Shown in pieces: positions 164-32,068 of a DNA stretch of 32,106 nucleotides. Source of the DNA: Melioribacter roseus (GTDB lineage Bacteria > Bacteroidota > Ignavibacteria > Ignavibacteriales > Melioribacteraceae); NCBI GenBank assembly GCA_020723165.1, contig DYJK01000033.1, forward strand, positions 1 through 32,106, in the 5' to 3' direction. A model generated the notes under the pieces. That model saw only the letters and a program-made list of their open reading frames with translations, ran no database searches and was not told the DNA's origin. The position numbers were made by a program, and so were the translations under genes. The stretch's first letter is position 1. Every line of letters begins with the position of its first letter.

Positions 164-1282
164 TTAGTGTGGGAAGATTTCATCAAGAAGATTTTTATCG
201 AGCAAAATTTCTTCGAACGAAGAGTAGATAAATTTGGAATTGTGCGAAAGGGATTTGTAGCTGAGGTCCAATGTTTCTTTCTTTTTGGGATTGATAACAA
301 CTAGATCGGTCCCGGGTGTAATATGTTTTTTGAATAGAGCTTTGATGTGAAGGTCGGCATCGGAAAGTGAGTAGCCGATGAAAACAATTTTTTTTGTTAC
401 ACGGATTTCCCGTGATGCTTCAACCAATAGCTGCTGTATGATCGGGTGATAAATAGTTTTCAAGTATGAGGGCGGAACGATCAATGTACTGAACTCGGTT
501 CCATCAATAGGACAGCTATACTCGTATTCAAGGTTATCGGGATATGTATAGCCGAGGAACTTCCCTTTGTTCAAATCGATTTTTCTATCCCACGGTGTAA
601 GCAAAGTTTGATTGCAGCAGTTGCAGTATTTCCAATTCAGACTGCCGTGCAGCTTAATAATTTTTATTGGTATCGGCGTGATCGATTCTTCTACCGGGAC
701 CGGTGCACGCGGATTAACCCAAAAGTTATATTGTGCAAGTTCGGGAAGTTTTTCGTAATTCATCAGGGGGATTGAGTAATCGATATAACAGTGATCTTTG
801 AAATGGAAATCGAAAGCTTGTTCGAGCAGTGTATCGTAATTTAATGTGATAACAGATGAGTTTGGTACCCGGCTGATGAGTGTTTTCCAGAAGATATCGT
901 AGTAGCCGCTGTTTTTATTTGTGTGAAAATTTACAATGTAATGGATCAGTTTAATCAGATACTCTTTTATGTCGCGTATCTTTTCGATCGAGTATTTCAG
1001 GTTAAGACTCTCATTGTGCTGTATAAAATAATCGAGAAATCCGAATACAGCTTCAAGCTGAGGGTAGTGATCGGAATGAACATTGTATTCAAAATTGTCT
1101 TTTATAAATTCAAGAACGATTCTGCCGATATCTGAATTTTCAATTTCTTCTATACCGCCGGAAATTATTTGGGGTAAGATATCTCTCTGCAGAGGTACTC
1201 CATCCGGGCGCGAAGCACCGGCACCAAGAACAAATACAATATCCCTCTTATGGGGGTAATGGAGAAACTTTAATGTTTTCAA
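164..1282 (-). CDS. SIR2-like NAD-binding domain protein
   Basis: A 372-residue stand-alone SIR2-like protein. Visible motifs are the nucleotide-binding GAGAS at residues 20-24, the TLNYD segment at 146-150, the LHGS segment with the candidate catalytic histidine at 211-214, a cysteine group (C220, C222, C223, C257) that may be a degenerate zinc ribbon, and FIGYSLSDAD at 301-310. These are hallmarks of the SIR2_2-type family, many of whose members are NAD hydrolases in anti-phage systems; that role is inferred here. The start is a TTG: an in-frame TAA lies three codons upstream and no ATG precedes the GAGAS motif. No partner such as HerA or an Argonaute is adjacent. It follows rsmG on the same strand after a gap of about 175 bases, so it may have its own promoter. 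Confidence 0.8.
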   Translation of the reverse strand: MKTLKFLHYPHKRDIVFVLGAGASRPDGVPLQRDILPQIISGGIEEIENSDIGRIVLEFIKDNFEYNVHSDHYPQLEAVFGFLDYFIQHNESLNLKYSIEKIRDIKEYLIKLIHYIVNFHTNKNSGYYDIFWKTLISRVPNSSVITLNYDTLLEQAFDFHFKDHCYIDYSIPLMNYEKLPELAQYNFWVNPRAPVPVEESITPIPIKIIKLHGSLNWKYCNCCNQTLLTPWDRKIDLNKGKFLGYTYPDNLEYEYSCPIDGTEFSTLIVPPSYLKTIYHPIIQQLLVEASREIRVTKKIVFIGYSLSDADLHIKALFKKHITPGTDLVVINPKKKETLDLSYKSLSHNSKFIYSSFEEILLDKNLLDEIFPH

Positions 1283-12350: not shown

Positions 12351-12779
12351 TTAGTGTTTTAATTTGGTTTCCAGGCTTTTAAGAAATTCTTCGGCAGTTA
12401 GAATATCTATTTTGCTACGCTTATAATCTATTTTATTTCTAGTAATAATAAGTGTAATGCCATTATTTACTGCTGTGAAATACTGAATTGCATCCTCAAA
12501 ATCATTGAATTCAGAATTAAGGGATTGTTCTATTACTCTTTCATCTATTGGTAGAATATTTATTAGAGTTTTGAGTTTCCTTAAGCTTTTTAAAGCTAAT
12601 AAATTTGTAGTTTGTTTCTTCAGAAGATAGTGGAGATTTGCAAAGATAAGTGGGGATGTGTAAGCAATAATTTCATTTTGATCAATTAACGTAAATAATC
12701 GAGCTGCGTGAATATAGTGTGGTTCTCTTTCAGCGAGTAAATCTAATATTATATCTGAATCAACAAAAAGTTTAATCAT
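12351..12779 (-). CDS. PIN-domain ribonuclease toxin (VapC-like)
   Basis: 142-residue PIN domain protein, close to the PIN_3 type. Acidic residues expected to bind Mg2+ are visible: D7 in LFVDSDIILDLL, E18, D96 in DFEDAIQY and D118 in TRNKIDY. Such proteins cleave RNA, often tRNA or rRNA. The start ATG overlaps the stop of the upstream antitoxin gene by 4 bases (ATGA), implying translational coupling. Family and pairing give a type II toxin-antitoxin system; the RNA target cannot be told. Confidence 0.88.
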   Translation of the reverse strand: MIKLFVDSDIILDLLAEREPHYIHAARLFTLIDQNEIIAYTSPLIFANLHYLLKKQTTNLLALKSLRKLKTLINILPIDERVIEQSLNSEFNDFEDAIQYFTAVNNGITLIITRNKIDYKRSKIDILTAEEFLKSLETKLKH

Positions 12780-13045
12780 TTGGAATATTTTACTTCAATG
12801 TAATTTCTATAAATCTCTTTCAAATTAATATTTTCTGGTAATTTGATAATCCCGGAAAGTTCAAGAACATTTGGTGATATTTCAACTTCTGTGATACTTT
12901 CTTTATCAGACTTGTCAGACGCGGCTGATATCAGATTAAAATACTTTTCAACCATTACCGAGAGACTCTGTTTATTTTTTTGAGCATATTTTTTAGCACG
13001 ATCAATGGCTTTTTTATTGAGCTTTAACGTTAGTTTGGTATTCAT
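12776..13045 (-). CDS. Antitoxin of the PIN toxin (DUF6364-like)
   Basis: 89 residues. The N-terminal part NTKLTLKLNKKAIDRAKKYAQ with the following KQSLSVMVEKYFNL is the ribbon-helix-helix-like region of DUF6364-type antitoxins, which bind operator DNA as dimers; the acidic C-terminal tail (EISPNVLELSGIIKLPENI) would wrap the toxin. The ATG has a good SD (AAAGG). It is upstream of and overlaps the toxin gene, the usual antitoxin-first order. An inverted repeat just upstream is a candidate operator. Confidence 0.82.
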   Translation of the reverse strand: MNTKLTLKLNKKAIDRAKKYAQKNKQSLSVMVEKYFNLISAASDKSDKESITEVEISPNVLELSGIIKLPENINLKEIYRNYIEVKYSK

Positions 13046-13062
13046 CTAATTCCTTTCAAATA

Positions 13063-13094
13063 ATACGTAAATTATCTTGGAATAAGATACGTAT
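13063..13094. promoter_or_regulatory. Candidate operator of the PIN toxin-antitoxin operon
   Basis: ATACGTA (13063-13069) and TACGTAT (13088-13094) are inverted repeats 18 bases apart, and ATCTT / AAGAT form a second inverted pair between them. The site lies 18-49 bases upstream of the antitoxin ATG, where autoregulating antitoxins normally bind. Confidence 0.5.
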
Positions 13095-13147
13095 CGTTAA
13101 TCCAATTTTCAAGTTCAGCTTTTAGACATTTAACGGCATGTTATGTT

Positions 13148-13175
13148 TGGCTTAGCCATCCCTTCGGGAAAAGAT
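13148..13175 (-). repeat. 28-bp double-hairpin dispersed repeat, copy 2
   Basis: Reverse-complement copy of the unit at 9964-9991 with one mismatch out of 28. It sits between the toxin-antitoxin operon and the T9SS protein gene. A loose ATCAAC/GTTGAT inverted pair follows. Confidence 0.65.
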
Positions 13176-13251
13176 CAACCCACCTATTAGTTCTCACCGC
13201 ACATGGCGGATCTGTTGATTATGAGTATGCCCCGTAAGCGGTTTGGTTGCG

Positions 13252-14004
13252 CTACTTTAACAATATGATTTTCCTTGTAAATAAATAATCTCTTGTTGAT
13301 AACACTACGAAATATATCCCCGATGCTTTTTGTTTTGCATTCCACACCAATTCATACTTACCGGGATATTTTTCTTTATGCTCAATTATCTCTGTCAATT
13401 CACCCAATGAATTAAATACTGATATGTTAACAAAACTTGTCCGTGTTATTTCATACTCTATTTTAGTTGCCGGATTAAATGGGTTGGGATAGACCGATAT
13501 TATTCTACAGTTCTGCGGAATGGATTTTAAGTCATCTTCAATCCCCAAGCCCGTACTTTTCGCAAGAAAATTCTGTACTAATGAATCAACGTAAATTCCA
13601 TTTCGTTTAACTTTTAGTTTTATTTCAAAGTTATATATCAGGTCTATAGAAAATGCTGAATCAAACGGGACTATTTCCGGAATATTTTGTGGTTTTGGCT
13701 CTTGATGAAAATACAATTCATAAATATCATTTTGTTCCTTATGAGAGCAAATGAAACCTACCATCTTTGAAATATCAATTTGATTTCCCGAACTGTCTTT
13801 GCAGAGAATGAACGAATTAAAACCGGCAGTAACTCTTATTGTGTCGGAATCTATTCCGGCGTGTATTTTAAAAATCATCTCCGGGGGCGTGCAGCCGCTG
13901 ATTATTTTTACCGTATCAACCTTTGGCACAAAAGTGATGTTTTGGGAAAGACTAATTGAATAAGAAATAATTAAAACAACAATCAATAAAAATGTTTTCT
14001 TCAT
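13252..14004 (-). CDS. Secreted protein with type IX secretion C-terminal sorting domain
   Basis: 250 residues. It opens with a signal peptide (KKTFLLIVVLIISYSISLSQ) and ends with a T9SS type A sorting domain over about residues 165-250: VYPNPFNPATKIEYEI, then NISVFNSLGEL, GKYELVWNAK and GIYFVVLSTRDYLFTRKIILLK. The domain directs transfer across the outer membrane by the Por/T9SS machinery. The central part (30-160) is beta-rich and unrecognised; a GCTPPEMIFKIHAG segment near residue 38 is the only notable feature. Single gene. Confidence 0.88.
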   Translation of the reverse strand: MKKTFLLIVVLIISYSISLSQNITFVPKVDTVKIISGCTPPEMIFKIHAGIDSDTIRVTAGFNSFILCKDSSGNQIDISKMVGFICSHKEQNDIYELYFHQEPKPQNIPEIVPFDSAFSIDLIYNFEIKLKVKRNGIYVDSLVQNFLAKSTGLGIEDDLKSIPQNCRIISVYPNPFNPATKIEYEITRTSFVNISVFNSLGELTEIIEHKEKYPGKYELVWNAKQKASGIYFVVLSTRDYLFTRKIILLK

Positions 14005-14127
14005 AATATTATTTGGCTGTTAATACTGCCATGGTCTTTAAATTTATCCCGTGCTTTTTATCGGGGCGGTCGGCTTGGAAAACTTGTTAGGCTATTTGCA
14101 TATATATTTCCATTTACTAAACAGGTT

Positions 14128-15261
14128 CTATTTAAATAAATCAGCCTGAATAGAAAACTTCAAAAGAGAGAACGCATTTTTAACTGCCAATATCCGAAAG
14201 CTCCCTTTTCCTACTACATCAATCTTTTTCTTCCTTTTATCAGCAAAATCCGATATTCCCCTGATGGCTATTGTTTTTGGTGCAGTACTTTGGATAAATG
14301 CTGCATCATAAACACCTGATGATTCCATTTCAATTGCAGCAACTTTACGATTAAAACCTTTAATCCAATTTATAAATGTTATTCCTTTTGCGACAGCTGG
14401 ACCACTTCCTAATATTTTATCATCTCCTACTATTAGTTTGCATTCTAATGGGAAATTGAGACCAATTTTTTCTAATGCACTTTTGGTTTCTTCATCAACG
14501 ATCATACAACTTTGTTTTTTTATTAGTTTTGTCCACCTCTTGAAAACTGTTTCGTTACTAGTTCTAAGTAGCTGAAATCTATTAAGTAGACGAGGATTAG
14601 TAGGTAATTGATTACCAGATGGAACAAATGATAAACTCTCACTCCCAGAAATCTCTGAATTTGCTAAATACTCCAAAACACTATCTGGGATAAATACATC
14701 ACCTGGTTGAAGGTCATTTGTTATCGACCCAGCTATTCCAATTACTACTACGTTTTTCGTTTTGTATTTAGTTAAAATTGCAGACATAATATTTCCAGAA
14801 CGTGTATTTCCCATTTTACCAGCTGGAATTATAGCAACTTTGTATGTTTTATCTGCGCTGAAAGATTTCAGATTACCATAATAAATTGATATCGCTATAT
14901 CATCAAGTTCATGGGCTTTAAAACCTTTGCCGAATATATCAATTAAATGATCAAACTCTTCTTTTAGAGCGACGTATACAACTATATCAATTCCACCATC
15001 GAACTTGTTTAGCCACGATTCATCAGAATTTCCCAGTTTATCGAATGTTTTATCAAATGAAGCAATAGCCATACGGTTTAGAGAATCTATTATCATAGCT
15101 CTATCAGATTTATACGATGACGTATCGCCATAAAGTCTAACTTGGTTCATATTTTCAGTTAGTCTACTTCGCAGAATATTAAATGTCGGTAAATCGGTAC
15201 TACTAATCTTCTTCGACATTATTTCTAAGCTTATTTCATAAATATCAAATATATTTTTCAT
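14128..15261 (-). CDS. Nucleosidase-fold effector with shared N-terminal adaptor domain
   Basis: 377 residues in two parts. Residues 1-78 are a helical domain with RLTEN at 33-37, LYGD at 43-46 and SDRAMIIDSLN at 52-62; a homologous domain opens the TPR protein at the other end of this operon. Residues 90-370 are a purine-nucleoside-phosphorylase / MTA-SAH-nucleosidase fold: VALKEEFDHL (97-106), GIAGSI (175-180), GDVFIP (187-192), AIEMESSGVY (309-318) and RGISDFAD (334-341), so the candidate catalytic E101/E102, E313 and D338 are present. This fold cleaves N-glycosidic bonds of nucleosides; some defence-associated relatives cleave ATP. The substrate is unknown. Good SD (AAGGA). It is last in a four-gene operon, 17 bases after the preceding gene. 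A housekeeping Pfs would lack the N-terminal domain. Confidence 0.85.
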   Translation of the reverse strand: MKNIFDIYEISLEIMSKKISSTDLPTFNILRSRLTENMNQVRLYGDTSSYKSDRAMIIDSLNRMAIASFDKTFDKLGNSDESWLNKFDGGIDIVVYVALKEEFDHLIDIFGKGFKAHELDDIAISIYYGNLKSFSADKTYKVAIIPAGKMGNTRSGNIMSAILTKYKTKNVVVIGIAGSITNDLQPGDVFIPDSVLEYLANSEISGSESLSFVPSGNQLPTNPRLLNRFQLLRTSNETVFKRWTKLIKKQSCMIVDEETKSALEKIGLNFPLECKLIVGDDKILGSGPAVAKGITFINWIKGFNRKVAAIEMESSGVYDAAFIQSTAPKTIAIRGISDFADKRKKKIDVVGKGSFRILAVKNAFSLLKFSIQADLFK

Positions 15262-15278
15262 GAAAAATCCTTATCTAT

Positions 15279-16031
15279 CTAAATGTTTATAATTCCTGTC
15301 CATACTTGAGAAAAAGAGCAATCAAAGAATTTATAACCTAAACTTTCTTGCCATCCAAATTCAGCATAGACTGATTTCTCTACTTCAGAAAGCTGTTGTA
15401 CTCTTAATCCAAATACAATTTCCACAACATCTTTAAGAATACGAAATAAAGTAAAACGTATTTGGGGGTCAATAGAGGAATACTTAATAGAACTTTTAGG
15501 AAAATAATACCAACATCTATGGATAGTGATACCTTTGGGTGGCAACTTTGTTATCCAATAATGAGGACCAAAAACCATTTCAAGAAGCACATCACTTTCT
15601 CGAATTATTAAAGTGCCACTAATTGAAGGTATTTTGTAAGGGCTAATATTTGCTTTTACTATTTGTGTGTTGTTAAGTTTTTCAATTGCCGCAACAGCGC
15701 CGTTAACATCAATATCTAAATGCCGAAATAGCAATTGCTCTTCATTAATATCCATGTAGCGTAAAGAAAGTTTCCAACCATCCTTAATTTTTTTTTCACA
15801 TAAATTCATAAAATCTTTTAGATCATTCGGAAGAATAAATTGAAAGGTTTCATAAATCGGCAATCCAATTGTATTTGCCAATATAATAAGTCTTTCTGTT
15901 TTGGATGATTCTTCTTTTAAAAGTGCATGAGCAAAAAGACTATCCTCGTTTACATTTTTTTTAATCATTCTCGCCCAGTAATTCATACTAGTATCTTGTC
16001 CGGTCAAAGTATGTAAATCATTTTTGAGCAT
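15279..16031 (-). CDS. Unrecognised 250-residue protein of the adaptor/nucleosidase operon
   Basis: I do not recognise this protein. The ATG at 16031 is preferred because GGAGA lies 8 bases upstream; a TTG six codons earlier is possible. No signal peptide or membrane helix is visible. The central stretch SISGTLIIRESDVLLEMVFG faintly recalls the beta-hairpin of ATP-grasp / PEP-synthase-type nucleotide-binding domains, but the rest (charged N-terminal helices, a Trp/Tyr-rich middle ITIHRCWYYFPKS, a C-terminal EFGWQESLGYKFFDCSFSQ) does not confirm this. It lies between the radical SAM gene (31-base gap) and the nucleosidase gene (17-base gap), so it is probably co-transcribed and part of the same pathway. 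Confidence 0.75.
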   Translation of the reverse strand: MLKNDLHTLTGQDTSMNYWARMIKKNVNEDSLFAHALLKEESSKTERLIILANTIGLPIYETFQFILPNDLKDFMNLCEKKIKDGWKLSLRYMDINEEQLLFRHLDIDVNGAVAAIEKLNNTQIVKANISPYKIPSISGTLIIRESDVLLEMVFGPHYWITKLPPKGITIHRCWYYFPKSSIKYSSIDPQIRFTLFRILKDVVEIVFGLRVQQLSEVEKSVYAEFGWQESLGYKFFDCSFSQVWTGIINI

Positions 16032-16062
16032 ATATAATTCTCCGATCAATTAAAACAATCAA

Positions 16063-17016
16063 CTAACATGAGCTACTGTTAAAAGTATTTGTAACCTGAG
16101 GTGGATTACCAAGATTGCTAATTATTTTTAACATACTATCATCAAAACTGTTATATAGTAACGGGTATCTAATATCATTTAGAATACATGATTTAATAAA
16201 TCCGTCGGTTGTTACTCGTAGATGTATTTTTGCACATATTTTACATTCACGAAGTCGACAATGTGACTGAAAGAAATAGATTTTCGGTTTATCATTTATT
16301 AAACCATAATATTCAGCTAGATTTACGATTAACCCTAATTTCATGGAAAATCTATCCAAAAGTTTCTTAGTCATTGAAATAAACTCATCACTGATTTTCG
16401 AATGTATTGAATTGTCACAAATTTCTAAAATTTTTAAAATGATCTCATTTTCTATACACCAAAATGCTAATTTTTCTAAACGAGAATAATCTCCGTCGTA
16501 GACACAAGCGATACTCACTTTTTGACCTAACTTTTTAAGAGTAAGAATATGTTCCAGAATTAATTCTGATGATAAACCATTTTTTGAATCTTTGGATATT
16601 TTTCCGTCAGCGTAATCAACTCCAATAACAAGATCATCTATTAATCTATCGGTCACAATAGGAATGAGTTTATCTAAGAGTATTCCGTTTGTATTGAAAC
16701 CAACAGTTGGAATAGCAAGCTCTTTTTTTAAAAGTCGAAGCATATTATAGCAATCTGGATGTAGCAGTGGTTCACCACCTGTTAATCTGACCTTAATTAA
16801 TCCATACCGTAAAGCGTTTGTAACTATGTATCGTAGGTGCTCAATATTCATATACTTCGATTTGATATCACCTTGTCCCTCATTATGACAATAAGAACAA
16901 TTCATATTGCAGATATCTGTAATTGAAATTCTAAGGTAACCCGAAGGGATATTCATATGCGTATAGCTATGAACCTCAACTGGTATATCAAGTTCGTTGC
17001 GTAGTTTATTTTCCAA
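16063..17016 (-). CDS. MoaA-like radical SAM enzyme
   Basis: 317 residues. The radical SAM [4Fe-4S] motif CNMNCSYC has cysteines at 36, 40 and 43; GGEP at 80-83 binds the SAM amino group. A second cysteine group (C258, C261, C277, with C253 nearby) in CKICAKIHLRVTTDGFIKSC matches the place of the C-terminal cluster of MoaA, but the second-to-third cysteine spacing is 15 rather than 13. The MoaA C-terminal glycine tail is missing; the protein ends in SSSC. It is therefore unlikely to be the molybdenum-cofactor enzyme, and no other moa gene is nearby. The start is TTG with AGAGGA upstream; no ATG precedes the core motif except M21. 27 bases separate it from the TPR gene. Substrate unknown, possibly a nucleotide or a peptide. 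Confidence 0.88.
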   Translation of the reverse strand: MENKLRNELDIPVEVHSYTHMNIPSGYLRISITDICNMNCSYCHNEGQGDIKSKYMNIEHLRYIVTNALRYGLIKVRLTGGEPLLHPDCYNMLRLLKKELAIPTVGFNTNGILLDKLIPIVTDRLIDDLVIGVDYADGKISKDSKNGLSSELILEHILTLKKLGQKVSIACVYDGDYSRLEKLAFWCIENEIILKILEICDNSIHSKISDEFISMTKKLLDRFSMKLGLIVNLAEYYGLINDKPKIYFFQSHCRLRECKICAKIHLRVTTDGFIKSCILNDIRYPLLYNSFDDSMLKIISNLGNPPQVTNTFNSSSC

Positions 17017-17043
17017 TATTATTTATCCTCTTTAAAAAGATTG

Positions 17044-18123
17044 TTACTTTGTAATAAGTGCTTCACCACGTTTAATTGTTTTAAGTAGTTTTTCTGCTTT
17101 ATAAGTGTTTCTTGGCATCAGTATTTCATTTTTGAGTAGATTATAAGCATGTTGTGCTACAAGCAAAGCTTCTGGATCTTTAAGAATATATAAACTTTTC
17201 GATAATTCTATATCAGCCATTGCCTCTCTATACGTTTTTAATAAGCTAAATTCTTCTCGAAGAAACGTAAGTGCAATAATCCTACTTTTTGATTTAAGTT
17301 CCTCATTTTTTGCTTCGACAAACATTCTTTTCAAGTGTACTTTATGTTCATCTATCCCAGTGAGCCGTTTTCTTGCTTCCTTATAATATTCTATTGCTAA
17401 GTTGATGTTTCCTTTATTCTCATATAGTTCGGCCAAGTAATTATAAAATACTCCAGTCTCTCTATAGTTTTTATCTTTATTGAAATACTCCAATGATTTT
17501 TTTAATAATTTTTCAGCCCCCTCAAGGTTCCCAATACTCATTAGCCGGTAAGCATCACCTTTGGCCAATATTGAGCCACAAAACTTATAATCCTTTTCTT
17601 TTTTACTTAACTTTAACATTTGTTTAGATATAACAGTCCCATCTTCCCATAACTCTCTTGTACCAGTAAAATAAAGTATCTGCCAATAGAGATTTTTTGC
17701 CTCTTCATATTCTCCATTTTGAGCAAGGGATGAAAATTGATTTAATAAGTTACTATAATTACTTGCGATCTTTGGAAAACGAGTCCATGCATTAAGTGGA
17801 AGTAATTCTATTGATGAGGGTTGAGATTGTCTTGTTTTGTTTAAAATAATATTCGAATCATTTTTACTTATTTCACATAAATCGTTAAAAGAATAATTGA
17901 GAACCTCAATTGATAATTTATTTAGTTCATATATAATCTTTGCTCTATCTGTCTTTTGTATTTCATTATCACCATACAATTCGGATTCTTGAATATTTTC
18001 ATTTAGCCTTTGCTCAAAAGTTAATGCTGAAAAGTAATACTTGTTTTCGCGACCGATCATATTTATGAGAATATTCAATCCTCTTTTATAAACGTAAAAA
18101 GGATGTTCCGAATATTCTTTCAT
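17044..18123 (-). CDS. TPR protein with shared N-terminal adaptor domain
   Basis: 359 residues. Residues 1-84 form the same helical domain found in the nucleosidase protein of this operon: RLNEN at 39-43, LYGD at 49-52, TDRAKIIYELNKL at 58-70, SFNDL at 78-82. From about residue 120 to 340 the chain is a TPR array (GEYEEAKNLYWQILYF, NLEGAEKLLKKSLEYF, YNYLAELYENKGNINLAIEYYKEARKR). Homology of the N-termini suggests homotypic contact between this protein and the nucleosidase; TPRs would supply ligand or partner recognition. It is the first gene of the operon, with ATG after GGAAG and a strong hairpin about 80 bases upstream. Function is inferred, not established. Confidence 0.85.
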   Translation of the reverse strand: MKEYSEHPFYVYKRGLNILINMIGRENKYYFSALTFEQRLNENIQESELYGDNEIQKTDRAKIIYELNKLSIEVLNYSFNDLCEISKNDSNIILNKTRQSQPSSIELLPLNAWTRFPKIASNYSNLLNQFSSLAQNGEYEEAKNLYWQILYFTGTRELWEDGTVISKQMLKLSKKEKDYKFCGSILAKGDAYRLMSIGNLEGAEKLLKKSLEYFNKDKNYRETGVFYNYLAELYENKGNINLAIEYYKEARKRLTGIDEHKVHLKRMFVEAKNEELKSKSRIIALTFLREEFSLLKTYREAMADIELSKSLYILKDPEALLVAQHAYNLLKNEILMPRNTYKAEKLLKTIKRGEALITK

Positions 18124-18203
18124 AATCGCTTCCTAAATATTTCCCAATAGTAAACTGATAATATTATTCAATAGCCGAACATATACTTATACAGAATACT
18201 CCT

Positions 18204-18224
18204 CATTCATACTTTGTATGAATG
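18204..18224. promoter_or_regulatory. Perfect hairpin/operator upstream of the four-gene operon
   Basis: CATTCATAC-TTT-GTATGAATG, a perfect 9-base inverted repeat, begins about 80 bases upstream of the TPR-gene ATG. It could be an operator for a dimeric regulator or a leader hairpin of the operon. Confidence 0.45.
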
Positions 18225-18279
18225 GTAGTTCGTACTGATTTATGTCTTAATACTGTGTACTGCTCTTTGTTACAACATT

Positions 18280-18414
18280 CAACTAAATTGATCTGCCCAC
18301 GGCGCGGTTGTTAAAGGATCGGGGTGGTTCGGGCGGAGAAATATGGAGGAAGGTTAACATCTACACTCCTTAAATACTGGACAAAATTTAACTCGTACAG
18401 AATTTTTTGTCAAT
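18280..18414 (-). repeat. 135-bp dispersed mini-gene repeat, copy A
   Basis: Aligned to the reverse complement of 26976-27110 it matches at 120 of 135 positions with no gap (counted by eye). Read on the minus strand it begins with a promoter (TTGACA, 17 bases, TAAATT), then AAGGAG, ATG, a 25-codon ORF and TAG, and ends 3 bases after the stop. Flanks of the two copies do not align, so these are the element's true ends. Confidence 0.85.
18283..18360 (-). CDS. 25-codon micro-ORF in repeat copy A
   Basis: Begins MLTFLHISPPEPP and ends NNRAVGRSI. AAGGAG lies 5 bases before the ATG, and TTGACA-N17-TAAATT (18408-18413 / 18385-18390) precedes it at promoter distance. The other copy encodes the same length and frame with 5 changed residues. 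All six base differences inside the ORF change amino acids, so selection for the peptide is not shown. It may be a real small protein, or the ORF may be incidental to a DNA or RNA element. Confidence 0.4.
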   Translation of the reverse strand: MLTFLHISPPEPPRSFNNRAVGRSI

Positions 18415-18436
18415 CAATTTATTTACCGCAGCAAAC

Positions 18437-18476
18437 TTTCCTCTCTGTCTCTTCGTGTCTCCGTGGTAATCTTTTA
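18437..18476. repeat. CTCTCTGTCTCTTCGTGTCTCCGTGG-type extragenic element
   Basis: A stretch of the widespread CTCTGTGTCTCCGTGG extragenic class. The broken HepT reading frame runs into it and stops there, so this element or an associated deletion probably replaced the rest of that gene. A relative lies at about 19020-19065. Confidence 0.45.
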
Positions 18477-18572
18477 TCGAATGTTAAGAAATAAAAATGG
18501 CGCAACGTAAAATAAAATCCCCTTTGATGCAGATTCAAACATGTCCTCTAAATAAATCGTATAATTTCTCAT
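18474..18572 (-). pseudogene. 5' remnant of a HepT-like (DUF86 HEPN) toxin gene
   Basis: Directly behind the MNT gene, an ATG overlaps its stop as ATGA (18569-18572), the usual MntA-HepT arrangement. The frame begins MRNYTIYLEDMFESASKGI, matching the start of DUF86/HepT proteins (typically xxYxxYLEDILESIEK), then loses similarity and stops after 32 codons, where the full protein would be over 100 residues. The catalytic RxxxxxH motif of HEPN ribonucleases lies further on and is missing. I read this as a truncated toxin gene. Confidence 0.6.
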
Positions 18573-18865
18573 ATTGAAATAGCATGATTCATTATAGAAT
18601 TTTTTATACCTGGTTTAACAACAGATTTCATTACTAGATCAACATTAATTCCTATTCTATCCGTAAGAAAATTTTCCAATTCGATAAACTTCAGTAGTCC
18701 CGGAACTTTCGAAAACGTAACCAATAAATCAAGATCGCTTGCAGAAGTTTGTTTGTCCCTCGTGTATGAACCAAAAACCTCAACTGATTCTACGTAGAAT
18801 TTCTCTTTTAAAATTGGATTCAATTCTCTTAGCAGAACTAATATTTTTGATAAATCTTTTTTCAT
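18569..18865 (-). CDS. MNT-type nucleotidyltransferase (MntA-like antitoxin)
   Basis: 98 residues from the ATG at 18865; an upstream in-frame TTG would add 5 residues and is less likely. The nucleotidyltransferase signature GSYTRDKQTSASDLDLLV has G32-S33 and the metal-binding D44 and D46. MntA proteins neutralise their HEPN partner HepT by adding AMP to it. Here the partner gene survives only as a fragment, so this may be an orphan antitoxin or a decaying pair. It is isolated on the minus strand between two repeat-rich gaps. Confidence 0.85.
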   Translation of the reverse strand: MKKDLSKILVLLRELNPILKEKFYVESVEVFGSYTRDKQTSASDLDLLVTFSKVPGLLKFIELENFLTDRIGINVDLVMKSVVKPGIKNSIMNHAISI

Positions 18866-18953
18866 AATGAAAAGATGCAATAATTAAACTATTAATTCAA
18901 TAATGACTTCATATATTAGTACTGATGTAACACGGCTATAGCTGCAAGGGATT

Positions 18954-27357: not shown

Positions 27358-28836
27358 ATGAATACACCAAAACTTTTCCTTGCGGCGGTTTTGATCGTCA
27401 TCTCCTTCAACAGTTGTTTCAATAAAAACACTACTACTGATATTGAAGGATTATGGATAGCGACTGAAGTAACACCCTCTCAATTTGGAGATGCAGATGA
27501 AGTTGCTTTGCTAATAAACCGGGATAGTAATAAAATACTGACAGCCCGCGCCTTTTTCTCACGGAACAATAAGTTCAAAATGGAATGGAAGATTATTAAT
27601 GTACAATATGATAGTATTGCAAGAAGACTTTCTGTGATTGATTCGGATTTAGATACTATAATATGCAGCCTGGATGCTAATAATGAAATTCTTGCAGTCC
27701 ATTTACCGGACAAAACCGATGATCCAGTAGATTTTGTTCGGTCAGACAAAGATCTCACTAATTTATTTTACGCGCGTATTCCGAATGAAAATGGTAAAAT
27801 AGTTTATAGTTATAATAAGCCGGAACAAATTGATGATTATTTATGGACAGATTCCATTTTCAAATGTGTAAAAGATTCAACTGCGTTTTACAAGCTGATG
27901 GATCGGATTATTCAACAAAAATCCGGACGGCTGGAATCCATATTAATCATCAAAGACGAGAAACTTATACTTGAAGAATATTTTTTCGGCTATAATAGAA
28001 CGAAGCTTCATCGCATTAACTCATGCACCAAAAGTGTTACATCTTTGCTGTTAGGAATAACTTTGAACCGTAATAAATTAAGCAAAGTCGATCAATCGAT
28101 CTTTAACTTTTTTCCTCAATACGATTCTTATAAAACACCGGAAAAGGAAAAAATAACACTAAAACATGTTTTAACAATGACGGCTGGATTTAATGAGGAA
28201 GATGATTTTGAAGATCACGGACCGGATAATTTTGTTCGATATATACTTAATAGTCAAATGGATACAAATCCGGGAGAGAAATTTAGATACAGCGGTAAAT
28301 GTTCAAATCTTCTCGGTGGTATCATTTATACACTTGAAAATAAGCAAGCCGATGAATTTGCAAAAGATGTTTTGTTCAACAAGCTGGGTATTTCGGAATT
28401 TGATTGGGAAAAAGAAAATGGTGTACTTCCTTGTGACGCTGGTCTTCAATTGTATCCGAGAGATATGGCTAAAATTGGTTTGCTGGTTTTAAATAATGGT
28501 TATTGGAATGGTGAACAAATTGTCCCCAAAGTATGGATAGAGGCATCAACAAAACCATATGTAGCCGAAAGCGATTTCTTCGATTATGGCTATCAATGGT
28601 GGTACAGATCAAAACGCAATAAAAGCTGGTGGAATGATCCGGTTCGTGGGAGTAAATCCGAACACGACATGTTCTTAGCGCTCGGTGCCGGTGGGCAGTA
28701 TATTATGGTTATTAGAGATCTGAATATGGTCATAGTAACTACGTCATCCGATTATAATAAAGATGGTATGGATCATCAAAAAGTACCAATGGTTATAGAA
28801 GAAATTGTTCCACTTTTTGAGGATTCAAATTTGTAA
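27358..28836 (+). CDS. NylB-like serine hydrolase lipoprotein
   Basis: 492 residues. The lipobox FNSC (about residue 20) suggests a lipoprotein. Residues 25-130 form a lipocalin-like beta domain (GLWIATEVTP...). The catalytic part is of class C beta-lactamase / 6-aminohexanoate-dimer hydrolase type: SCTK with S222 and K225, YSGK with Y311, and GAGGQYIMVIRDLNMVIVTTS near the end. The likely reaction is hydrolysis of an amide or ester; the substrate is unknown. SD AAAGGA. The truncated gene at 31232 is a close paralogue. Confidence 0.87.
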   Translation: MNTPKLFLAAVLIVISFNSCFNKNTTTDIEGLWIATEVTPSQFGDADEVALLINRDSNKILTARAFFSRNNKFKMEWKIINVQYDSIARRLSVIDSDLDTIICSLDANNEILAVHLPDKTDDPVDFVRSDKDLTNLFYARIPNENGKIVYSYNKPEQIDDYLWTDSIFKCVKDSTAFYKLMDRIIQQKSGRLESILIIKDEKLILEEYFFGYNRTKLHRINSCTKSVTSLLLGITLNRNKLSKVDQSIFNFFPQYDSYKTPEKEKITLKHVLTMTAGFNEEDDFEDHGPDNFVRYILNSQMDTNPGEKFRYSGKCSNLLGGIIYTLENKQADEFAKDVLFNKLGISEFDWEKENGVLPCDAGLQLYPRDMAKIGLLVLNNGYWNGEQIVPKVWIEASTKPYVAESDFFDYGYQWWYRSKRNKSWWNDPVRGSKSEHDMFLALGAGGQYIMVIRDLNMVIVTTSSDYNKDGMDHQKVPMVIEEIVPLFEDSNL

Positions 28837-31231: not shown

Positions 31232-32068
31232 ATGAAGGTATTAGAATTTCTCGTATTGATTATTTTTTTCAACTTCCTTTTTATTGGATGCCAAAATAAT
31301 CCTGATCAAAATAATGGATCTTCCGACAAAAATAAGGGACAGCATTATATCTCAATTGATGGACTATGGCGAGTAACACCAGAGACAGCAATAAAATTTC
31401 CACACGGAACTCTTGAGCCGGCAATCCAAATAAGCGGTGATGCTTTTGGTAAACTAACAGTACGGGGCTGTTTTCTTTGGGATCATCGCTTCTACGACTA
31501 TTGGGAAATTGATAGTATTCAATTTATAGATTCTACAAATCAATTGGTGCTTGTTGATAAAGAGGGCAGTACATACAGAGGATTAGTTGATCAAAAGAAA
31601 GAAAGTATACAGGGGATTGCTTACTCCTGGGGTGGAGACCCTGATACCAATAAACTTGATTTTATACGCGAAGAAGAAATTGATGTAAACAAATTATTTA
31701 TTCCTTACCCTCCCGGTCCAGATAGAAGTGTGAAATACACTTATCAGCAACCTGAACAAATTGATGAATATTTGAATACTGCTTCGATATTCAATTTTGT
31801 AGAGGACACAACTGCTTTCTACAATTTGATTGAAAGAATAATCAAACAAGAATTCGGTCGCCTTGAATCTTTTTTAATTATCAAAGATCAGCAACTAATC
31901 CTTGATGAATATTTTTACGGCTACGATAGAACTCAACTTCATCACATCCATTCATGCACAAAGAGTATAACTTCTCTGCTTTTAGGAATATCATTGGAAC
32001 GTCATAATAAACTTAATGTTAATCAACCGGTTTTTAATTTTTTCCCGCAATTTGTAATAACTCCATAG
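31232..32068 (+). pseudogene. Truncated NylB-like serine hydrolase, paralogue of the gene at 27358
   Basis: 278 residues with lipobox FIGC, the lipocalin-like N-domain (SIDGLWRVTPETAIKFP) and the start of the catalytic domain with SCTK (S241, K244). It matches the gene at 27358 in order (EQIDEYL, ESFLIIKDQQLILDEYFYGYDRTQLHHI, NFFPQ) and then diverges at residue 274, ending in VITP and a TAG. The tyrosine and GGQ motifs are lost, so it cannot be active. The break falls where IS-like repeats begin. Good SD (AGGAGAG). Confidence 0.75.

Follow-up and report, generated by a model that had tools for sequence, protein, structure and literature searches.

What might a radical SAM enzyme resembling MoaA be doing in an operon that closes with a nucleosidase? 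The question is raised by a gene on a contig of Melioribacter roseus (GenBank assembly GCA_020723165.1, contig DYJK01000033.1), all 32,106 nucleotides of which form the window analysed here; the genome, 3.81 Mb in size and 98% complete, has it as contig 157. An initial annotation had described the gene product as an atypical, MoaA-like enzyme outside a molybdopterin context, which might produce a derivative of a nucleotide that the nucleosidase uses or that acts on it as a signal.

The operon and its surroundings

The gene stands second among four on the minus strand, which run from 18123 to 14128 in the order TPR protein, radical SAM protein (hereafter rSAM), 256-aa protein and nucleosidase, separated by gaps of 27, 13 and 17 nt (Table 1). 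The start codon of the rSAM gene is TTG, and GAGG sits 10 nt before it. Promoter and terminator scans gave results no better than those of shuffles. The G+C content of the stretch containing the operon is low, which fits a horizontal gain and is no proof of one.

Table 1. Positions of the operon genes and of their domains and motifs in the window
Feature	Position	Strand	Evidence
TPR protein, 359 aa, first operon gene	17044..18123	-	SNAP 26.3 and TPR_14 24.0 bits, just over cut-offs
N-terminal domain of TPR protein, common with nucleosidase	17878..18099	-	35% identity, 74 residues, E 3e-9
MoaA-like radical SAM protein (rSAM)	16063..17016	-	317 aa, TTG start; PF04055 1.3e-21
rSAM core CxxxCxxC, residues 36-43, then HNEGQ (44-48)	16888..16911	-	invariant in 8/8 family rows
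rSAM C-terminal C253-x4-C258-x2-C261-x15-C277 with I-H265-L-R267	16186..16260	-	four Cys, H and R invariant in 8/8
Novel 256-aa protein, possibly ATP-grasp-like	15279..16049	-	42% identity to L118:10897-11700
Nucleosidase (PNP/UDP phosphorylase superfamily), 377 aa, last operon gene	14128..15261	-	PF01048 3.9e-17
N-terminal domain of nucleosidase, common with TPR protein	15034..15249	-	same alignment as for TPR protein
Low-GC stretch containing the operon	12351..18880	.	31.7% G+C vs 37.9% in rest of window

Other genes of the window are of interest in their own right. An MntA-like nucleotidyltransferase (PADLOC PDC-S09, 3.2e-23) is encoded at 18569-18880 on the minus strand, with no HEPN partner recognised in the list of open reading frames, and two overlapping small genes at 12351-13045 (minus strand) read like a PIN-type toxin and an antitoxin. 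The SIR2-like protein at 164-1282 (minus strand; PF13289, 1.1e-10) is another possible defence gene. On the plus strand, the genes at 27358-28836 and 31232-32068 read as two similar serine hydrolases, the second being the shorter and ending close to the edge of the contig.

Cysteine motifs and fold of the radical SAM protein

The CxxxCxxC core that had been claimed for the protein is borne out, residues 36-43 reading CNMNCSYC (C36-x3-C40-x2-C43). At the other end, three cysteines had been placed with a spacing of C-x2-C-x15-C instead of the x13 of MoaA. This spacing is correct for C258, C261 and C277, but the group was incomplete as described, with a fourth cysteine, C253, lying five residues earlier; the C-terminus thus counts four cysteines, arranged as C253-RLRE-C258-KI-C261-x15-C277. 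Judged by the PF04055 match and by the same pattern in seven relatives, this arrangement is real and beyond chance. The last spacing is x15 in seven of the eight family members and x18 in the one from Bradyrhizobium (L059).

The AlphaFold model of the rSAM has a mean pLDDT of 76.6 and is nearest to MoaA (PDB 1tv7; Z 23.2, rmsd 3.3, 272 residues). The four conserved C-terminal cysteines and the MoaA-like fold would fit a C-terminal half of the twitch kind, with one auxiliary 4Fe-4S cluster; residues 253-260 have pLDDT values under 50. Two of the three arginine positions of the MoaA triple mutant 2fb2 (17, 266 and 268) are retained: R29 and R267 of the rSAM, invariant in 8/8 family rows, align with Arg17 and Arg268. 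In MoaA, the auxiliary cluster is held by three cysteines and the substrate, GTP being bound at the open iron. With its fourth cysteine, the rSAM may have an auxiliary cluster that is closed, or that binds the substrate otherwise than in MoaA.

Related to MoaA, yet distinct from it

Compared with NCBIfam, the rSAM found its three strongest matches, among the best 25 of 74 rows, in MoaA models (TIGR02666, TIGR02668 and NF001199), and it stayed under the cut-off of each. The top match reached 111.6 bits against a cut-off of 284 (residues 26-285), the two others 107.4 against 231 and 102.6 against 325. An archaeal MoaA used as a control (L063) gave 416 against 231, 385 against 325 and 269.8 against 284 bits, and was over two of the three cut-offs. 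Throughout the genome, at 98% completeness, no protein exceeded a MoaA cut-off, the rSAM itself being the top match, nor was MoaC found, which 10 of the 20 genomes searched possess. This genome-wide check covered two genes, MoaA and MoaC, and for these it agrees with the claim of a setting outside molybdopterin synthesis.

The lack of a MoaA glycine tail, also pointed out in the initial annotation, is confirmed by the ending FNSSSC, without GG, and is weak evidence taken alone. All 31 MoaA-type rows of bacteria, of which the phylum search supplied 29 and plasmid records 2, carry a GG tail, but none of 31 CHNEGQ-type rows with x13 spacing does; since these include L063, with its scores over two cut-offs, the absence of GG is not diagnostic against MoaA. 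The cysteine at position -5 occurs in 8/8 family rows versus 0/62 MoaA-type rows, and so does the IH-x-R motif ([IM]H-x-R[VI][TS]), at whose position 40 of the 62 MoaA-type rows have R-x-R; these rows were labelled by motif and source, with an NCBIfam scan only for L063 and a fragment of L070.

In a tree of 54 rows, the rSAM family forms a clade with a support of 98/95 and falls outside the MoaA clade (99/96), rather than clustering tightly with true MoaA. The 26 MoaA rows are a random draw from the 62, and the tree came with warnings of joined long branches; L059 is such a long branch, and its position is less sure. Long or odd rows were left out (L081, L117, L054, L043, L051 and the second radical SAM proteins of L058 and L098). 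The tree contains no reference maturases or viperins; for the latter, 148 phylum genomes supplied none, but neither did 14 control genomes, so that this search is uninformative on absence. Taking scores, motifs and tree together, we regard the rSAM as related to MoaA yet distinct from true MoaA on the level of sequence, and the label of an atypical, MoaA-like enzyme was well chosen.

Rows that join the window family in the tree at 97/89, among them L066, L106 and L088, again have nucleotide-handling neighbours. The first two named are actinobacterial loci (L066:7494-10954 and L106:7585-11023) with genes for a cytidylyltransferase-like protein, a PPDK-type ATP-grasp protein and a CHNEGQ radical SAM protein, and the locus of L088 has a nucleoside diphosphate kinase gene as a neighbour. 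A divergent CHNEG radical SAM protein with another C-terminal cysteine layout is encoded on a viral contig (L054:71-1231, minus strand), which by reading has a high G+C content and an actinobacterial character.

A small and scattered family

The seven relatives show 29-62% identity to the rSAM and come from four bacterial phyla and one phage contig. The phage contig (L118) carries the closest one with 62%, followed by those of Spirochaetia (L055, 56%), Ignavibacteria (L057, 44%), Alphaproteobacteria (L056, 43%), Clostridia (L058 and L098, 35-37%) and Bradyrhizobium (29%). Searched with the single rSAM sequence, 315 of 395 genomes of the phylum contained a match, and the best 29 beyond its own gene (L004-L032, 26-35% identity) were MoaA-type rows ending in GG. 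The 62% relative was retrieved by a pattern scan of viral contigs (CN..C[ST][YF]CHNEG), and an alignment search of genome contigs with this viral relative yielded 63 loci from 95 stretches; six of the 63 belong to the family, together with the viral contig and the window. L096 was rejected as a family member, and L084, L111, L116 and L117, being fragments or remote, were judged by the core motif alone.

Besides the own genome, the family was found at E <= 1e-40 in a single genome out of 340 of the class, G625, already listed as L057, and in none of 394 phylum genomes. The clade, which lies outside the MoaA clade, is small, rare and patchy, and as part of the explanation preferred below we view it as horizontally spread.

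Neighbours of the rSAM gene

All three of the closest loci (window, L118 and L055) share the TPR-rSAM pair, with the TPR gene directly upstream. The gene of the 256-aa protein directly follows the rSAM gene in two of them, window and L118. This third gene is not constant because the 272 bases that follow the L055 rSAM gene show no trace of it, by a method that finds the L118 copy at 1.7e-14. The nucleosidase accompanies the rSAM in the window only, and the phage copy shows none. On the phage contig (L118:8179-13537), the genes for the TPR protein, the rSAM and the 256-aa protein are followed by a B12-binding radical SAM gene, while the opposite strand encodes a terminase-like protein (1.8e-6) and a phage exonuclease (2.2e-52).

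Nucleotide-handling neighbours are present at five of the eight loci with the window nucleosidase counted, a raw number for a kind of neighbour that may be common; the available stretches of L055, L118 and L059 (the last by reading only) have none. The alphaproteobacterial rSAM gene (L056) is followed downstream by genes for a HIT protein (3.6e-9) and, under the cut-off, a MazG-like protein (7.4e-4), and in L057 a HIT-like gene that runs off the contig stays under the cut-off as well (1.1e-3). Both clostridial loci have a pol-beta nucleotidyltransferase upstream and a NUDIX gene downstream (L058, 2.2e-13; L098, by reading), and on the other strand a second radical SAM gene and a P-loop protein, which in L058 weakly matches thymidylate kinase. 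As a whole, these two loci (L058:7337-11332 and L098:7370-11311) look like an uncharacterised nucleotide pathway. In L056 (8619-11913), the rSAM also adjoins a protein whose sequence resembles, by reading, class I tRNA synthetases and has no Pfam match over cut-off.

The TPR protein, the nucleosidase and their common domain

Beyond the two models named in Table 1, further TPR models stayed under their cut-offs on the 359-aa protein. It is 38% identical to the TPR proteins of L055 and L118, with which it has the TPR part in common. Its residues 9-82 are homologous to residues 5-76 of the nucleosidase, a match that a genome-wide search recovers at 2.0e-5, and this common N-terminal domain found no match in Pfam or in the plasmids.

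The nucleosidase matches two PADLOC models, PDC-M60C (2.3e-25) and 'Effector, PN-superfamily' (2.1e-13), the latter being a label which we take to belong to CBASS (Cap17). By these sequence matches it is assigned to the phage-defence PNP effector class. Its catalytic domain (residues 90-375) is 49% identical to a protein that is encoded on a Klebsiella plasmid and carries the annotation TIR domain-containing. The corresponding plasmid locus (L047:7989-14983) encodes a response regulator and an ATP-binding protein alongside the nucleosidase-TIR protein, with an IS5-like element lying in between, and by analogy recalls a Detocs-like system into which a TIR domain has been fused. PMC11249213 and PMC10952713 describe Detocs as a system of three genes, with a PNP effector that splits ATP into adenine and ribose-5'-triphosphate. 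The genes PDC-M60 A, B and C are consecutive Agrobacterium genes, B being annotated as a response regulator, and their arrangement recalls that of the three-gene Detocs.

The 256-aa protein

No recognisable family was found for the third protein in Pfam or NCBIfam. Its model, built from two sequences, is poor (pLDDT 47); Foldseek on this model listed 50 matches, all of them ATP-grasp proteins and none at E <= 0.001, including Ddl, RimK, rifampin phosphotransferase, MdnB/MdnC, PsnB, TTL and GARS. VIA gave mostly TTL with Z up to 7.2, which is in the noise range, and its top row was an unrelated binder outside the ATP-grasp proteins (7.3). Sequence-profile comparisons lent no support to an ATP-grasp relationship, and the profile matched the PPDK-type ATP-grasp proteins of L066 and L106 with a probability of 0.2%. 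The protein is possibly ATP-grasp-like, going by this model.

Searched alone, the 256-aa protein had no relative in genome contigs, viral contigs or plasmids. The alignment of the window and phage copies retrieved nothing beyond the phage contig L118 and, among 235 class genomes, nothing beyond the own genome, and the phage copy by itself had no match in plasmids or phages. A weak match in G081 (28%) contains three stops.

What the operon may do

Starting from the observed family, cysteine pattern, gene order, common domain, effector class and patchy spread, the explanation we prefer, with a probability of about 40%, is that the rSAM is a radical enzyme of the twitch type, directed at nucleotides and working for a mobile conflict or defence operon; its substrate, product, signal and role in defence are what we infer. 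SAM would be cleaved at the N-terminal 4Fe-4S cluster, and an auxiliary cluster would be held by up to four C-terminal cysteines. A nucleotide or nucleoside is the likeliest substrate because of the fold, the retained arginine positions and the neighbours. The rSAM, together with the 256-aa protein where present, would yield a modified nucleotide that may be sensed by the TPR protein or may itself be antiviral; the TPR protein might engage the nucleosidase through the common N-terminal domain, and the nucleosidase might then destroy a nucleotide pool such as ATP. The earlier suggestion of a nucleotide derivative, made by the rSAM and either used by the nucleosidase or serving as a signal to it, would fit this scheme, for a nucleosidase found with the rSAM in the window only.

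The shape of the operon, with an adaptor bearing a common domain, a PNP effector, a patchy spread and a phage-borne copy, argues for a conflict system, and a role in defence is possible on the same grounds. Parts of PMC8195603 and PMC7159879 describe how common adaptor domains unite effector and signalling parts in bacterial conflict systems. We call the operon mobile on the basis of its patchy spread, its low G+C and the one phage copy.

Alternatively, the rSAM and an ATP-grasp-like ligase could modify a precursor peptide or a protein in the manner of RiPP pathways, which we consider unlikely. SuiB (Z 20.0) and PqqE (19.4), both acting on peptides, come directly after MoaA in the list of folds, ahead of viperins at about 18-19; the SPASM subfamily model TIGR04084 aligns to residues 32-277, with 28.3 of 225 bits; and the peptide ligases MdnC and PsnB are among the weak matches of the 256-aa protein. 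A passage of Kaur et al. 2020 (PMC7159879) suggests a peptide role for the radical SAM effector of another conflict system. However, the intergenic gaps of the operon are too small for a precursor, and no convincing small reading frame adjoins it. No SPASM or maturase model was over its cut-off, or near it, among the best 25 of 74 NCBIfam rows, headed by the three MoaA models, which also speaks against a known maturase; Pfam gave no SPASM family at E <= 1.

About as improbable is an enzyme for a nucleoside antibiotic or toxin, for example one swapping sulphur for oxygen like AbmM, in which case the nucleosidase would serve for self-resistance or processing. With the single sequence, AbmM (8wm2) is indeed the top PDB match (59.7 bits) and has CHNEG in common with the rSAM, and the second radical SAM, P-loop, nucleotidyltransferase and NUDIX genes of L058 and L098 recall nucleoside clusters as presented in parts of PMC12691670. 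The family profile, in contrast, favours MoaA with 111.8 bits over AbmM with 84.5, which comes after two MoaA sequences; its significant alignment is limited to profile positions 26-132, in the N-terminal half, and its C-terminal stretch scores -1.9 bits. The four operon genes of the window include no transporter or tailoring gene, and the architecture of TPR protein and common domain looks like that of a conflict system.

A divergent, relocated MoaA (GTP 3',8-cyclase) working for molybdopterin synthesis, to which both the top NCBIfam match and the nearest fold would lead, is rejected and refuted for practical purposes by the scores under three cut-offs, the missing MoaC, the position outside the MoaA clade and the altered C-terminal cluster.

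The nucleotide-directed conflict enzyme can be extended to a bolder, rather doubtful proposal. The operon would then be a new immune module, in which a four-cysteine, MoaA-related rSAM and a ligase-like protein make a nucleotide signal or chain terminator, a TPR adaptor passes it on to an ATP-destroying nucleosidase, and a phage has acquired the core of TPR protein, rSAM and ligase-like protein. Judged by their listings, none of the open-access papers found deals with this operon. Viperin is, to our knowledge, the only radical SAM enzyme with an established antiviral nucleotide product. If the proposal is true, immune nucleotides would have a wider chemistry, with a second radical SAM lineage, related to MoaA, linked to an effector nucleosidase. 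The variant with four cysteines raises the question of whether the substrate-binding auxiliary cluster of MoaA can be closed off or reused. With four genes, the module is small and directly testable.

Comparison with known systems

Compared with MoaA (1tv7), the rSAM has a near full-length sequence match, the nearest fold, the CxxxCxxC core, a single C-terminal cysteine group and the equivalents of Arg17 and Arg268. It differs in carrying four cysteines as C-x4-C-x2-C-x15-C, whereas MoaA has three as C-x2-C-x13-C, in its IH-x-R instead of R-x-R, in scores far under the cut-offs, in its separate clade and in a genome without MoaC. To the sulphur-swapping AbmM of albomycin it is linked by the match in the N-terminal half and by CHNEG after the core; the C-terminal part has no significant alignment, the fold match (Z 17.2) is below that of MoaA, and the neighbours in the window differ from those given for AbmM in parts of PMC12691670.

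Prokaryotic viperins have in common with the rSAM the radical SAM core, a possible nucleotide substrate and a possible role in defence, and those with bound CTP or UTP match its model with Z 18.0. The viperin model NF038283, however, is matched in the N-terminal part only and with 42.2 bits of a cut-off of 180, on which we reject this identity, and PADLOC pVip is matched over residues 30-142 (1.6e-13); the rSAM differs further by its C-terminal four-cysteine group.

Likeness to Detocs and to the PNP effectors of CBASS (Cap17) comes from the nucleosidase, through its matches to PDC-M60C and 'Effector, PN-superfamily'. The operon itself is not Detocs because there is no kinase or response regulator among its proteins; scans of these four proteins and of proteins flanking the operon showed neither a sensor kinase nor a response regulator. 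In the window, the nucleosidase is instead fused to a domain that it has in common with the TPR protein.
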